From assembly GCA_947492885.1 (NCBI GenBank), contig CANLPK010000014.1, forward strand, positions 1 through 45,759: a stretch of 45,759 bases of DNA, given 5' to 3'. Shown one piece after another: positions 4,583 to 14,879 of the stretch. Under the pieces are notes generated by a model. That model was given only the letters and a program-made list of their open reading frames with translations, searched no databases and was not told where the DNA came from. Position 1 is the first letter of the stretch. Every line of letters starts with the position of its first letter. Made by a program: the position numbers and the translations under genes. The stretch is from Bacteroidota bacterium (GTDB taxonomy: Bacteria > Bacteroidota > Bacteroidia > UKL13-3).

Positions 4583-5278
4583 ATGGAAGAGTTCTTATCA
4601 CTGTATTCTAAAATAGAAAACCCGACCCTTGAAATGGTTTTCTTTACCTTTTTATTATCGTTTTTACTCTCGGTAATGATTGCGGTAATCTATACCAAGA
4701 CCACTCCTAATACAATTAAGACGCCCAATTTTGTTCAGGCCTTAATCCTTAGTTCTATTATTGCAAGTACTGTTATTCAGGCAACTAACAACAGTATTAC
4801 TTCCGGACTTGGTTTATTAGGGGCCCTCACCATTCTTAATTTTCGAACTAATTTCCGAGACCCTAGAGATATCATTTTTATGTTTGCAGCTATTAGCACT
4901 GGAATTGCTTGCGGATCCTATGTGTTTCTAATCGCTATCATAGGCATCCTGGGTTTCGGTGCCATTGCCATCATTCTAAGTTTCACACCCTTCTATTTAG
5001 GCAATCATCTAATTTGGGATCTGCGTGTACGATTCGACAAAATGCCTGAAAAAGAAAAACTCGTTGAAGATATCCTTGCTGAGTTTTGTAGAAAGTATAC
5101 CAACGAAAGTATTCGTAATGAGTTAACAAAAGAAAATACTCCATTTTTAGAATGTGAATATGTAATTATATTAAAAGAGGAAGGCAATGCCCGATTGATG
5201 ATTTCAACACTCGAACAAGGAGGCATCACTGTGAGAAAATACAGCAAACAAAATACAGAGTTTACGTCTAACGATTGA
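4583..5278 (+). CDS. DUF4956 family membrane protein
   Basis: About 231 residues with three or four membrane helices in the first 150 residues (roughly 15-35, 50-70, 75-90, 100-140) and a soluble C-terminal domain of about 85 residues. The segment SGLGLLGALTILNFRTNFRDPRD is the hallmark of DUF4956. Family members are often encoded beside VTC-type polyphosphate polymerases and CotH kinases, which has suggested a role in polyphosphate or envelope polymer handling, but the activity is not established. Here the stop codon TGA overlaps the ATG of a HlyD-like adaptor (TGATG), and a TolC-like gene follows. The frame extends to a TTG at 4568; the ATG at 4583 is preferred. Confidence 0.8.
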   Translation: MEEFLSLYSKIENPTLEMVFFTFLLSFLLSVMIAVIYTKTTPNTIKTPNFVQALILSSIIASTVIQATNNSITSGLGLLGALTILNFRTNFRDPRDIIFMFAAISTGIACGSYVFLIAIIGILGFGAIAIILSFTPFYLGNHLIWDLRVRFDKMPEKEKLVEDILAEFCRKYTNESIRNELTKENTPFLECEYVIILKEEGNARLMISTLEQGGITVRKYSKQNTEFTSND

Positions 5279-6270
5279 TGAAAAAGATTAACCTGCTATA
5301 TGTGTTCTGGGTATTGGCTTTGCTAATATTCTTCATGATAATGCGCAATTTGAATACGCAAGGGAGCCGTACGATTTTTGGGATTGCATTCTCTGAGAGC
5401 TATTCCCTTAATGTGGAATATGCAACCATCGTAACTGATCGCCGCGTTCAAACAGGCGACCGAGTAAAAAAAGGAGATACTTTATTAATACTTCATAGAA
5501 GTGAAATGGACCGTGATTTAGAAGATCGATTGGCTTCTATTAATTTGCTTGAAGTGGAACGTGATTCAAAAAATGAATTATTGAATAAAGAGATTGCCAT
5601 TTTCACTGCATTACAAAATAGCAGGGAAAGCGAAATCCTTGCACAGATTAAAATTGTTACCCAAGAACTTCAAATTCAAAAGAACCTCTTACAATCTATT
5701 GGAGATAGTAAGTCGAAGATGGAGAACAATGTTAAACAACTGGAGCTTGATGCGCTGAAAGAATCGCAACAACACTTACAATTAAAAACCAATCAACAGC
5801 TTAACGCATACGAATCGCAAAGAGTTGCAAATAATAATAGTTGTACCGCGCATGTTGCCCAGTTGAAAAACGACTTAAACTATTTTAGTCAGGAGCAGCA
5901 TAAAATGTTTGTGCTTTCGCCTTGCGAAGGAATCGTGGAAGCTATTTTAGTTTTACCCAATGATATTGTTCCTCAATACAAAGAGCTTGTACGTGTAAAT
6001 AGTATTACTCCAAACAAAGTTACAGGTTTTATACATGAGAGTGTTGCTACCCCTTTTAACTTAGGAGATACGGTAATGCTTGCGTCGGCTGCACGCCCTG
6101 ATATAAAAGCAAAAGGCATCATAATTGGTAATGGAACTAACCTGGTTGAGTTACCACTTCGACTTCGAAAATTTGTTGAAATAAGAGCTTGGGGACGAGA
6201 GGTTTATATTAAGTTGGACCCTACCAACAGTTTTTATATAGGGGAAAAAATATTGGTTCAGATGAACTAG
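5278..6270 (+). CDS. HlyD-like membrane fusion (periplasmic adaptor) protein
   Basis: A 330-residue adaptor. It has an N-terminal membrane anchor (about residues 5-22), a first half of a lipoyl-like domain (VQTGDRVKKGDTLLILHRS, residues about 55-75), a long coiled coil rich in Glu/Gln/Leu/Lys (about 78-205), the second lipoyl half (VLSPCEGIVEAILV, about 210-225) and a beta-barrel segment. Such proteins bridge an inner-membrane pump to a TolC channel. The start overlaps the stop of the DUF4956 gene and the stop is one base from the start codon of the TolC-like gene, so the three are almost certainly one operon. No ABC, MFS or RND pump is encoded in the operon, leaving the DUF4956 protein as the only inner-membrane candidate. 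Confidence 0.85.
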   Translation: MKKINLLYVFWVLALLIFFMIMRNLNTQGSRTIFGIAFSESYSLNVEYATIVTDRRVQTGDRVKKGDTLLILHRSEMDRDLEDRLASINLLEVERDSKNELLNKEIAIFTALQNSRESEILAQIKIVTQELQIQKNLLQSIGDSKSKMENNVKQLELDALKESQQHLQLKTNQQLNAYESQRVANNNSCTAHVAQLKNDLNYFSQEQHKMFVLSPCEGIVEAILVLPNDIVPQYKELVRVNSITPNKVTGFIHESVATPFNLGDTVMLASAARPDIKAKGIIIGNGTNLVELPLRLRKFVEIRAWGREVYIKLDPTNSFYIGEKILVQMN

Positions 6271-6271
6271 A

Positions 6272-7570
6272 ATGAATTTAGGCATGTTTAAGTTACCCAC
6301 CTTTTTCTTTTTAATATTGCTAATATCCTGTATTAATGCGGGAGCTCAAACTATAACACCCGAACAAATTATACAATCGTCGTTTAACGATGAGAAAGTG
6401 ATGCGCGATTCGCAGATGGAAACATTTGTGCAAGGACTTGATTACCATTTGCCGATGGTAAAAAAATTGGAGGCAAGGGTTGGTTTCAATGGTAACAATA
6501 CCAGAGATAGCCTAGATGGTAATTTAAGAAATGAAGATTATTATTCGATTAGTTTAACTACCAATAAATGGCGCGAGATGAAGCTGCAAAAGGCCATCAA
6601 ACCCGCCCAGTATCAAGTTTATAGCAAAGAGAAAGAAATGCTCCTAATGCAGGCGCTGCAAGATCGCTACCTTGTATTGATAAACTTATATTATAGTCAG
6701 GAATCATTAACCAAAAGGAAAGAGCTTCAAACTTTACTGAATACCAAAAATCAATTACTTCAGCAAATGCTAAACGATGGCGTCAATATTAAAATTAGTG
6801 ATGCGCTCGACGTTGAAAAAGATTTAATTCAACTCTATGGATTCCTGCAAGAAGATGAGAGCTCTGTTGTGACGTATACTGCACGCATAGGGCAATTCAT
6901 AAATAATAGAACACTTGCGAATGTGAACTTCTTGAACTTGATTAGCCTGAAAAAGGTGATGATTAATAGTGTCAATCTAAAACAAGACAGTACCAAGACG
7001 CATCCTTCACTCGAATACAAAGAAGCACAATATCGATTCGCAAAAGCCGATTATCAGCTTGAGAAAGTTCAAAATACCAATATTATTAATTCCTTTCAAG
7101 TAGGCTATAACAAGCCAGCTTATGCATCTGAAATTTTAAAGAAATTTAAGCCCGATAATACCTTGACCTTCAGAGTTGGTATCGCGCTCCCGCTTACTGC
7201 CAATAATAGTTACGGAAGAAATAATGCCAATATTCAACAATACAATGCATTACTTAACTGGCAAAGCGCTCAGGTAATGCAAATGAAAAGTACAAGCATT
7301 CAATACTCACGACTTGAAAACACCATTCGCCAATACAATACGCTACTTGACATTTACGAGAAAGGTATTGTATCAAAACTTTTGAATAATGAGCAAGTGA
7401 TGTCACAGAGCACAGCGCTTGAAATTATCGATTTGAAAATTGCACAAAAGAAGTTGGAGATTAATTTGATCAATAGCGCAGGTAATTTAATGCAGAGCTA
7501 TGTTTCACTGCTCGAAAGCAAAGGCTTATTGAAATACGATTTGCGAAATATTTATTTATTAGAAAACTAG
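6272..7570 (+). CDS. TolC-like outer membrane efflux/secretion channel protein
   Basis: A 432-residue protein with a signal peptide ending at about residue 25 (INAGAQT). The mature part consists of long amphipathic helices with two similar halves (Gln/Leu/Lys-rich segments around 130-190 and 320-420) and short beta strands, as in the outer membrane factor (TolC) family. It is somewhat shorter and more divergent than E. coli TolC. It would form a trimeric channel through outer membrane and periplasm that docks onto the adjacent HlyD-like adaptor. It is the last gene of the operon that starts with the DUF4956 gene. Confidence 0.78.
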   Translation: MNLGMFKLPTFFFLILLISCINAGAQTITPEQIIQSSFNDEKVMRDSQMETFVQGLDYHLPMVKKLEARVGFNGNNTRDSLDGNLRNEDYYSISLTTNKWREMKLQKAIKPAQYQVYSKEKEMLLMQALQDRYLVLINLYYSQESLTKRKELQTLLNTKNQLLQQMLNDGVNIKISDALDVEKDLIQLYGFLQEDESSVVTYTARIGQFINNRTLANVNFLNLISLKKVMINSVNLKQDSTKTHPSLEYKEAQYRFAKADYQLEKVQNTNIINSFQVGYNKPAYASEILKKFKPDNTLTFRVGIALPLTANNSYGRNNANIQQYNALLNWQSAQVMQMKSTSIQYSRLENTIRQYNTLLDIYEKGIVSKLLNNEQVMSQSTALEIIDLKIAQKKLEINLINSAGNLMQSYVSLLESKGLLKYDLRNIYLLEN

Positions 7571-11798: not shown

Positions 11799-11897
11799 GT
11801 ATGATGGCAAAAATAACTTTATTTTACGTTTTGATTTTTTTAAATTGCGAAGGTGTTTCGAGGGATTAAATCTTTCATAATATCCCACAAATTAATC

Positions 11898-12524
11898 ATG
11901 TTTAATTTCCAAAAAACAATTTTCACTATGCTATGGCTTTGCACTGGAATTGGAGGCTTTGCGCAAAATTGGGATATCAATCTATTAAAAAAAATCAATA
12001 GTCCGCAATCCCCCAACGCTACAAAGTTCTTTAAATTCACGAGCAACAGTGCTTATGTAATTCCGTTTGCATATCCTGCTTTAAGTTTCACAATTGGAAA
12101 AATAAAGAAATCAAGTCCCTTCGTTCAAGAAAGTTTTTTTTCGGCCTCATCATTAGCCACAGCATGTGTCTTAAGTTATTCAATTAAACTCATTGGAAAG
12201 CGCGATCGACCCTATGTAACCTATCCTAATCAACTAATCATTGATAAGCCTTCAAAAACCTATTCTTTCCCATCGGGACATACCACAGCTGCTTTTTGTA
12301 GCGCCACAAGTATGGCTTTGTACTACAATAAATGGTATGTAACCATTCCAGCTTATGCTTGGGCCTGCTCGGTAGCCTATTCAAGGATGTATTTGGGCAA
12401 GCATTACCCTACGGATGTAATTGGTGGTATGGTTTTAGGTATTGGTATTCCAATGCTTTTTCATTATTGCACACCCGTAAATCGATTTGTTAATGGGATT
12501 GGGCAAAGCATGCTTCATTATTAG
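11898..12524 (+). CDS. PAP2 superfamily phosphatase
   Basis: A 208-residue protein with an N-terminal signal or membrane segment (about residues 5-22, ending GFAQ). It has the complete PAP2 signature: KLIGKRDRPY (KX6RP-like), SFPSGHTTAAF and SRMYLGKHYPTDVIGG (SRX5HX3D). PAP2 enzymes dephosphorylate lipid phosphates, such as undecaprenyl pyrophosphate or phosphatidylglycerol phosphate, at the periplasmic face. The frame runs back to a GTG at 11853, but the hydrophobic leader begins at the ATG at 11898. It lies head-to-head with the acyltransferase gene. Confidence 0.9.
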   Translation: MFNFQKTIFTMLWLCTGIGGFAQNWDINLLKKINSPQSPNATKFFKFTSNSAYVIPFAYPALSFTIGKIKKSSPFVQESFFSASSLATACVLSYSIKLIGKRDRPYVTYPNQLIIDKPSKTYSFPSGHTTAAFCSATSMALYYNKWYVTIPAYAWACSVAYSRMYLGKHYPTDVIGGMVLGIGIPMLFHYCTPVNRFVNGIGQSMLHY

Positions 12525-12569: not shown

Positions 12570-14879
12570 ATGTGTTTTAGGGGTTTACTCGTGTTTGTTC
12601 TATTGCCATTTATTGGCTATTCTCAATACGTAAATCCACCTCGAGGAAGAGTATTTAATGATAGTGTTTTAATCACTGTAAATATAAATCTACCTGTCGA
12701 TTCACTCAATGCACTTTATTTACCTGGCAACGAATGCAGCGATCATGAGTATCCTGTTACATTTATTTGGCGTGATGGAATATTACCCAATGATACGGTG
12801 CTAAATGTTGGTATCCGTTTTAAAGGAAATACCTCTCGATTTGCTAAGAAGAAATCATTTAAACTTTCATTTAATACTTTTAAATCGGGGCGAAATTTTT
12901 ACGATGTAGAGAAACTCAATTTCAATGGTGAACATAATGACCCCTCCGTAATTCGTGAAAAACTTTTTTGGGATGCGATGTATCAAAATAATCTTCCAGC
13001 CCTTCGTTGTAATTATGTCAAAGTATTTATCAACGGAGCTTACTATGGAATCTATATCAATATAGAAGATTTGGATGAAATTTTCACACAATCGCGTTTT
13101 GGAAATAGTGATGGCAATTTGTATAAATGCTATTATGGGGCCGATCTAACTTATAAGGGGGTGAATGGCAACTCCTACAAAATGACTGGGAACTTTTGCA
13201 ATAAGATTCAGCGTGTATATGAACTACAAAATAATGTTGCTGCCGACAATTACCAATCCTTGGCCGACTTTATTAATGCTTTAAATAATTTGCCAGCGGA
13301 TACTACCTATGCAGCTAAAATAAAGAAGTATTTTAATGTTGAATCCTACTTGCAGATGTTGGCATTAGAAGTGGCCTCCGGTCATTGGGACAATTATGTT
13401 TGGAATAATAATAACTTCTTCCTCTATCAAAATACCTATACAAATCAAATGGAGTATATTAGCTATGATGCTGATAATACCTTTGGCATTGGATGGAGTA
13501 GCGACGATTGGGGAACTAAAAACGTGTATCAATTTAATTCAGGAAAAGCCCGGCCATTATTCACTAAACTACTTGCTGTGCCTGAGTTTAAAAACAAATA
13601 TGATTATTACTTAAATAAATTCACAACGACCACTTATGATACGTCCATAATTTTTCCTCGTATTGATTCCCTTCATAACCTAATTTGGGGTGCCGCAGTG
13701 GCGGATACTTTGCGAACTAAAGACTATGGATTTACAGTTGGTCAATTTCATAATTCATACAGTCAGACTATTGGTGTAGCACATGTTAAATATGGCTTGA
13801 AACCTTTTTTCACTGCACGTAATACTTCAATCAAAGAACAAATTAGTCATAATAATATTATTCCTGTTTTATCGAATGAAAGACATCAGCCTGAGTTTGG
13901 ATCTATCAATGATTTATTAAAGTTTAATATTTCTGGAACTGATGATGAAAGTCCATTGGTATTGAATTTATTATATTCCTTCGATTTGGTAAGCGGATTC
14001 ACGAAAGCCACACTTTTTGATGATGGCTTGCATCAAGATGGAATTGCTGGTGATGGTTACTACGGTTTTTCATTACCTCCTCATGGTAGCATCGATACCT
14101 GCGTTTTTTATTATACAGCTTCCGCTCCTTCGGGTCAAACAGCCCGATATCCTTCTTATGAATATCTTTCCCTTTATCTTGGAATCCGTAGTAATTTAAA
14201 ACTTCGAATTAATGAATTGATGCCAAAAAATACTTCTGTGATTTCCGATGAGCTTGGCGAATTTGACGATTGGTTAGAGATTTATAATATGGATAATAAT
14301 GCCATTGATTTAGGTTCACTTTATTTGAGCAATAGCTTAACCAATCAAACCAAATTTAAATTACCATCTTATTCGTTACCCGCGAATAAATTCTCCTTGT
14401 TTTGGTGCGATAATCAAACAGCACAAGGAGCTTATCATGTAAACTTCAAATTGAGTGCAGGTGGAGAGTGGGTTGGATTATTCGATGCAAAAGGATTAAT
14501 CATTGATAGCGTGAGTTATTTAAATGCGAATGACAATATCTCTTATGGTAGAATTACCGATGGACTAGGATCCTTTATGTGGTTGGGAAACCGAACCCCT
14601 GGCTATAGCAATCAGGGGAATAGTTATGGTATTTGGATGGGCAATGATAATAAAGAAATGAGAGTCTATCCGAATCCGGCTTCAAATTCAATTCATTTCT
14701 TCTTACCGAATAATTATAAGGAAACTGAATTTCATCTACTAAATAATATCGGTGAGCAAATCCAAAATGGGATTGCCTCTGATTCGGAAATTGTACTTAA
14801 TATTTCCTCACTACCGAATGGTATTTACTTTTTAAGTATTCATGGCTTAGCTACTCGGAAAATCGTAATAAATCATTAA
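12570..14879 (+). CDS. Secreted CotH kinase-family protein with lamin-tail domain and T9SS sorting signal
   Basis: A 769-residue surface or secreted protein. A signal peptide (1-18, ending IGYSQ) is followed by a CotH domain (about 30-380): VGIRFKGNTSRFAKKKSFKL is the usual N-terminal CotH block, KVFINGAYYGIYINIEDLDE the central one, and YISYDADNTFGIG holds the metal/ATP-binding D-x-D. After a linking Ig-like part (about 430-540) comes a lamin-tail domain (LRINELMPKNTS, EFDDWLEIYN, about 545-670) and a C-terminal sorting domain starting VYPNPASNSIHFFL and ending RKIVINH. CotH proteins are atypical kinases; bacterial secreted versions are poorly studied. Export through the type IX system is inferred from the tail. 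Confidence 0.9.
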   Translation: MCFRGLLVFVLLPFIGYSQYVNPPRGRVFNDSVLITVNINLPVDSLNALYLPGNECSDHEYPVTFIWRDGILPNDTVLNVGIRFKGNTSRFAKKKSFKLSFNTFKSGRNFYDVEKLNFNGEHNDPSVIREKLFWDAMYQNNLPALRCNYVKVFINGAYYGIYINIEDLDEIFTQSRFGNSDGNLYKCYYGADLTYKGVNGNSYKMTGNFCNKIQRVYELQNNVAADNYQSLADFINALNNLPADTTYAAKIKKYFNVESYLQMLALEVASGHWDNYVWNNNNFFLYQNTYTNQMEYISYDADNTFGIGWSSDDWGTKNVYQFNSGKARPLFTKLLAVPEFKNKYDYYLNKFTTTTYDTSIIFPRIDSLHNLIWGAAVADTLRTKDYGFTVGQFHNSYSQTIGVAHVKYGLKPFFTARNTSIKEQISHNNIIPVLSNERHQPEFGSINDLLKFNISGTDDESPLVLNLLYSFDLVSGFTKATLFDDGLHQDGIAGDGYYGFSLPPHGSIDTCVFYYTASAPSGQTARYPSYEYLSLYLGIRSNLKLRINELMPKNTSVISDELGEFDDWLEIYNMDNNAIDLGSLYLSNSLTNQTKFKLPSYSLPANKFSLFWCDNQTAQGAYHVNFKLSAGGEWVGLFDAKGLIIDSVSYLNANDNISYGRITDGLGSFMWLGNRTPGYSNQGNSYGIWMGNDNKEMRVYPNPASNSIHFFLPNNYKETEFHLLNNIGEQIQNGIASDSEIVLNISSLPNGIYFLSIHGLATRKIVINH

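Follow-up and report, generated by a model that had tools for sequence, protein, structure and literature searches.

Operon layout and neighbouring genes

Within the window, by which we mean the whole 45,759-nucleotide stretch of DNA analysed here, the genes for a DUF4956 protein, an HlyD-type adaptor and a TolC-fold protein form one tight operon on the forward strand (4583-7570; Table 1), hereafter the trio. The DUF4956 stop and the adaptor start overlap in TGATG, with A5278 common to both, and a single base separates the adaptor gene from the TolC-like gene, which bears out the initial annotation of three overlapping or nearly touching genes as one operon. A NUDIX gene on the same strand stops 92 bases 5' of DUF4956 and the first gene 3' of the TolC-like gene is convergent, so the unit consists of exactly three genes; the NUDIX gene was considered as an additional member and dropped because it is not retained just upstream of the operon in loci L052-L054. 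No ABC, MFS or RND pump was found in the operon or in the window. The secreted CotH gene previously noted about 5 kb downstream is real (PF08757, E=3e-55, Pfam) and here lies outside the operon. A PAP2-family phosphatase gene (11853-12524) is located directly 5' of this CotH gene on the same strand.

Table 1. Features of the operon and the CotH gene in the window
Product	Position	Strand	Length and ends	Remarks
DUF4956 protein	4583..5278	+	231 aa, ATG 4583 to TGA 5278	predicted inner membrane, MgtC-like
Putative HlyD/membrane-fusion-type periplasmic adaptor	5278..6270	+	330 aa, ATG 5278 to TAG 6270	
Predicted TolC-fold outer-membrane channel protein	6272..7570	+	432 aa, ATG 6272 to TAG 7570	
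Secreted CotH-kinase-family protein	12570..14879	+		CotH + LTD + T9SS tail (PF08757, PF00932, PF18962)

Adaptor and channel proteins

The window adaptor matched HlyD_D23 of Pfam (1.7e-4) and TIGR01730 RND_mfp of NCBIfam (2e-10), both below cut-off, and carries an N-terminal hydrophobic anchor. The family is conserved across 37 aligned sequences, and adaptors of relatives in L042 (HlyD_3) and L200 exceed the Pfam cut-off; at the sequence level, these data are consistent with assignment of the window adaptor to HlyD. The R-x3-L-x6-S/T pattern, taken as the TolC-binding tip motif, was absent from all 37 trio adaptors, which counts against the conduit proposed below.

Neither Pfam nor NCBIfam supported the TolC-like protein, and the OEP profile, which is matched by the TolC protein of L200, found no match in the window. 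An AlphaFold model of the protein (pLDDT 86) gave E. coli TolC, ST50, SilC and OprM as its best PDB matches in Foldseek, with CusC also matched, at E values from 1e-13 to 1e-9 (best 1.5e-13) and a TM of about 0.6. As modelled, the third gene product is predicted to be of the TolC-type fold, in which long helices and paired beta-strands each occur twice.

The DUF4956 protein

The DUF4956 protein scored over the curated cut-off of PF16316 (46.5 bits vs 30.6, E=4e-12). Our model, built from a 44-row alignment and of moderate pLDDT (72), places five membrane helices at residues 16-40, 50-67, 72-88, 94-111 and 115-133, followed by an ACT-like C-terminal domain with the order beta-alpha-beta-beta-alpha-beta. 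The earlier description of DUF4956 as the only inner-membrane candidate, with a soluble domain attached, is retained, and its count of three to four helices is replaced by five. In Foldseek searches of the PDB, the top match was the C-terminal domain of mycobacterial MgtC (2lqj), at a modest E of 3e-3 and spanning the C-terminal domain of DUF4956 only, with ACT domains among the further matches; a sequence search of the PDB with the same protein gave no match. Profile alignment of DUF4956 and MgtC with hhalign gave Prob 87.5 (E 3.6e-6) over 187 columns covering both the membrane and the C-terminal domain, while unrelated pairs gave Prob <1. The window protein did not match the Pfam MgtC family (PF02308), and its relative in L200 stayed below cut-off (24.3 bits vs 31.4, E=4e-5). 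From sequence and model together, we placed DUF4956 in the MgtC-like superfamily, though outside the strictly defined MgtC family (PF02308). Residues G77 and R88 were invariant in 61/61 aligned DUF4956 sequences from all classes.

Conservation of the trio

As the initial annotation had suggested, we counted neighbourhoods, using the DUF4956 alignment to scan the species genomes of GTDB; this yielded 45 loci. The trio was complete in 37 of these, its genes mostly within a few bases of one another; two of the remaining loci were cut by contig ends and six were without adaptor and channel. The trio loci belong mainly to Saprospiraceae and Neolewinella, with one in Chryseobacterium. The six solo DUF4956 loci are all from Saprospiraceae (L066, L068, L069, L070, L072 and L075), and in each of them the gene 5' of DUF4956 matched the window CotH protein; in both loci checked, this upstream gene encodes a protein with LTD and a T9SS tail without a CotH domain.

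We also searched 247 genomes of the phylum with the trio adaptor and obtained strong matches (E<1e-50) in 17 genomes, of which 15 belong to a single family from another class. Every one of these strong matches sits between DUF4956 and a TolC-like gene, as does the weaker match in G116; the other five weak matches adjoin different genes, with no DUF4956. The case named beforehand as telling against the initial reading, in which the adaptor would always be paired with a distant ABC transporter and DUF4956 would be missing from most such loci, fails given these 17 adjacent pairs. In the other-class family the trio was complete in 15/15 of the carriers found. There (L201-L204), a gene of 182-183 aa lies 5' of the operon (DUF6580 in L201) and a short-chain-dehydrogenase-type gene lies 3' of it.

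ABC-like ATPase motifs occurred in 5 of the 45 GTDB loci, in every case at least about 4 kb away, and no pump or multi-helix neighbour recurred near the trio across these loci, so that the absence of a recognised pump holds for relatives as well as for the window. With the trio complete in 37/45 loci and in 15 carriers from another class, and with no recurrent pump, the operon is no accident.

VTC-bearing relatives and the DUF4956 tree

Five genomes from other genera of the window's family contain an HlyD-VTC-DUF4956 operon; where the contig extends beyond it, in four of the five, a TolC gene comes next. Farther afield, we inspected 14 full-length divergent DUF4956 loci from a sample of the phylum, and in 13 of them VTC and DUF4956 have a neighbouring adaptor-like gene, some of these adaptors being supported by Pfam and others recognised only by HMMs built in this analysis, and CotH adjoins several of the 13. 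In L200 (5390-12281), genes for CotH, DUF4956, HlyD, TolC and VTC are contiguous and followed by one for an LTD-domain protein; no fuller version of the system was seen.

A midpoint-rooted tree of DUF4956 grouped the trio, quartet and five-gene types, together with a small solo set, in one clade (support 92/83) that excluded the VTC-only type and the classical Bacteroidetes type. Direct HMM searches between the adaptors and channels of the trio and those of the quartet gave no cross-match at E 1e-3; profile-profile comparison gave Prob 90 for the adaptors and a weak Prob 20 for the channels. In the classical Bacteroidetes VTC-DUF4956 operons (L046-L048, L050), a DUF2490 gene adjoins DUF4956 in all four checked, as if another outer-membrane part had replaced TolC, DUF2490 being an outer-membrane barrel by weak similarity only. 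Short DUF4956 proteins (185 aa) with no adaptor, VTC or CotH nearby were seen in L216 (6063-6620) and L217 (6207-6767), and both genomes are without CotH. In two further Bacteroidota loci, L043 and L044, DUF4956, VTC and CotH occur together and no Pel gene was noticed, which is in tension with PMC12345266, where the three-gene synteny is stated to be confined to Pel loci.

VTC was absent from 5/5 genomes of the window genus (completeness 99% or more in four), as well as from the Chryseobacterium trio genome and 15/15 of the other-class trio genomes, and so a VTC gene elsewhere in the genome was ruled out for all three groups. The initial annotation had seen no VTC gene, which is correct for the window and understates an absence that extends to all five genomes of the genus. 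PPK1 was present in 20/20 near-complete VTC-less trio genomes searched; PPK1 is common anyway.

CotH as the constant partner

Tabulating genomes with both DUF4956 and CotH, DUF4956 only, CotH only and neither, we obtained 29/2/2/25 for 58 relatives (agreement in 54, p=7e-12), 33/3/14/68 for 118 phylum genomes (p=8e-15) and 15/2/0/6 for 23 genomes, each from a different family (p=3e-4), p-values that overstate significance because related genomes are not independent, the one-per-family table being the most conservative. In the phylum sample CotH was thus found in 33/36 DUF4956 genomes versus 14/82 others. Ten of the 45 GTDB loci have CotH no farther than about 8 kb away, and it was found in all of the VTC-less trio genomes named above, those of the window genus, the other-class family and, weakly (5e-6), Chryseobacterium. 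The suggested tie to CotH, and to VTC in relatives, is upheld by this co-occurrence and by the sister operons. Since VTC is missing from the trio genomes and CotH is nearly always there, the constant partner is CotH, and the CotH protein of the window may well be a functional partner of the trio.

We considered whether adaptor and TolC accompany DUF4956 only where CotH crosses the outer membrane, and ruled this out. T9SS tails on CotH were about as common without an adaptor (17/22 genomes with adaptor-less DUF4956, vs 15/17 and 17/21 in the sets compared), so outer-membrane crossing alone does not explain the adaptor.

A possible conduit and its alternatives

Starting from the observed architecture, conservation, shared DUF4956 ancestry and co-occurrence, we tentatively propose, at somewhat less than even confidence, a pump-less trans-envelope conduit built on DUF4956 that would move phosphate-rich anionic cargo toward CotH kinases at the surface; the physical complex, its cargo, its direction and its energy source are those that we infer. 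DUF4956 would sit in the inner membrane, with its MgtC-like membrane domain there and its ACT-like domain in the cytosol, the HlyD-type adaptor would span the periplasm and the TolC-type channel would lie in the outer membrane. The trio would represent a branch, without VTC, of a system widespread in Bacteroidota whose genes for a cytosolic VTC polyphosphate polymerase, DUF4956, HlyD and, variably, TolC lie together, with a secreted CotH encoded alongside in several genomes. The cargo could be polyphosphate or another phosphoryl donor, exported for use by the secreted CotH kinases. In yeast, VTC links synthesis of the polymer to its translocation (PMC9911596), and in the VTC-bearing relatives polymer synthesis might likewise itself drive translocation; lacking VTC, the trio would need a different supplier of its substrate, for example PPK1, or the cargo would differ.

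The initial annotation, which had offered export of polyphosphate or another polymer, or DUF4956 as motor or gate, is thus partly supported. Polyphosphate may be the cargo of the trio, a choice made doubtful by the trio genomes without VTC, where the cargo need not be polyphosphate. DUF4956 may itself be the motor, which is in turn doubtful given that the known role of MgtC is regulatory and that it is not an established transporter, and for the same reason a gate, scaffold or regulator is nearly as likely as a motor. It is accordingly doubtful, though conceivable, that the trio represents a new class of tripartite exporter in which an MgtC-like protein that has neither an ATPase nor a known pump fold joins HlyD and TolC to feed polyphosphate or another phosphoryl donor to extracellular CotH. 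If true, such a class would explain the phosphate supply of extracellular kinases. The system ties three poorly understood families (DUF4956, bacterial VTC and CotH) to a putative physical route across both membranes, making testable both the membrane role of MgtC-like proteins and the source of the phosphoryl donor for secreted kinases.

The MgtC-like sequence and fold of DUF4956 also suit an account in which the protein is a gate or regulator and not a translocase, sensing or controlling the energy or phosphate state as MgtC-like proteins might, perhaps with the ACT-like domain as the sensor, and opening or assembling a conduit of adaptor and TolC, with cargo that synthesis drives through it or that enters it from the periplasm. 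PMC12345266 also discusses MgtC as a regulator and describes Streptococcus intermedius SIR_1592 as an MgtC transmembrane domain plus ACT; by position, and through PMC7112168, SIR_1592 is probably the DUF4956 gene of Pel clusters, an equation of our own. In the same study, deletion of SIR_1592 raised Pel and lowered aggregation, deletion of CotH (SIR_1594) lowered both, and these two, not the VTC-like SIR_1593, are the only accessory genes named in the abstract as reducing aggregation, effects that favour a regulatory role. Against it, DUF4956 is the sole conserved inner-membrane component with several helices, and no other recurs, so we regard this account as a serious competitor, if on the unlikely side.

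We consider it improbable that the operon serves to export or anchor a polysaccharide or glycan of the cell surface, to be phosphorylated by CotH outside the cell. CotH-VTC-DUF4956 genes do accompany Pel clusters in Gram-positives (PMC7112168), and in L044 the DUF4956-VTC-CotH genes lie beside a Wzy-type gene and, by eye only, glycosyltransferase-like genes, but an unsystematic inspection of the trio's neighbours showed no recurrent synthase or glycosyltransferase. Ordinary tripartite efflux or type I secretion, with the pump encoded elsewhere and DUF4956 as an unrelated neighbour, would fit the folds of adaptor and channel; however, strong trio-adaptor matches lie solely beside DUF4956, adaptors adjoin DUF4956 in several lineages and no recurrent pump is nearby, so that this explanation is already disfavoured and appears very unlikely.

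Comparison with known systems

The association of CotH, VTC and DUF4956 has already been published for Gram-positive Pel loci (PMC7112168). In the open-access literature we found no report linking these genes to HlyD or TolC and no tripartite system built on an MgtC-like protein, and papers that treat CotH together with HlyD, VTC or polyphosphate contained nothing on the trio system.

The tripartite efflux and type I secretion systems HlyB-HlyD-TolC, EmrAB-TolC and AcrAB-TolC likewise combine an adaptor, a TolC-fold channel and an inner-membrane protein in one operon; in the trio, however, the predicted inner-membrane part is DUF4956/MgtC-like and not ABC, MFS or RND, and the adaptor is without the R-x3-L-x6-S/T pattern. 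The Gram-positive Pel cassette CotH-VTC-DUF4956(-DUF4832) (PMC7112168; PMC12345266) has in common with our loci the DUF4956 family, CotH and often VTC, whereas the trio adds adaptor and channel, VTC is missing from trio genomes of the window genus and of other groups, and inspection of the neighbourhoods, as opposed to a Pel-specific search, turned up no Pel gene. Like the eukaryotic VTC complex (PMC9911596), the VTC-bearing relatives would pair a polymerase domain with a membrane partner, which fits synthesis-coupled translocation, but their membrane part would be MgtC-like instead of Vtc1-type, an adaptor and an outer-membrane channel are added, and the trio has no polymerase at all. With MgtC/SapB (PF02308), DUF4956 shares a weak but direct sequence similarity and, in the model, a membrane domain followed by a C-terminal ACT-like domain; it differs in the invariant R88 within a [FY]-R-[TAS] stretch and in an operon context of adaptor, TolC, VTC and CotH.
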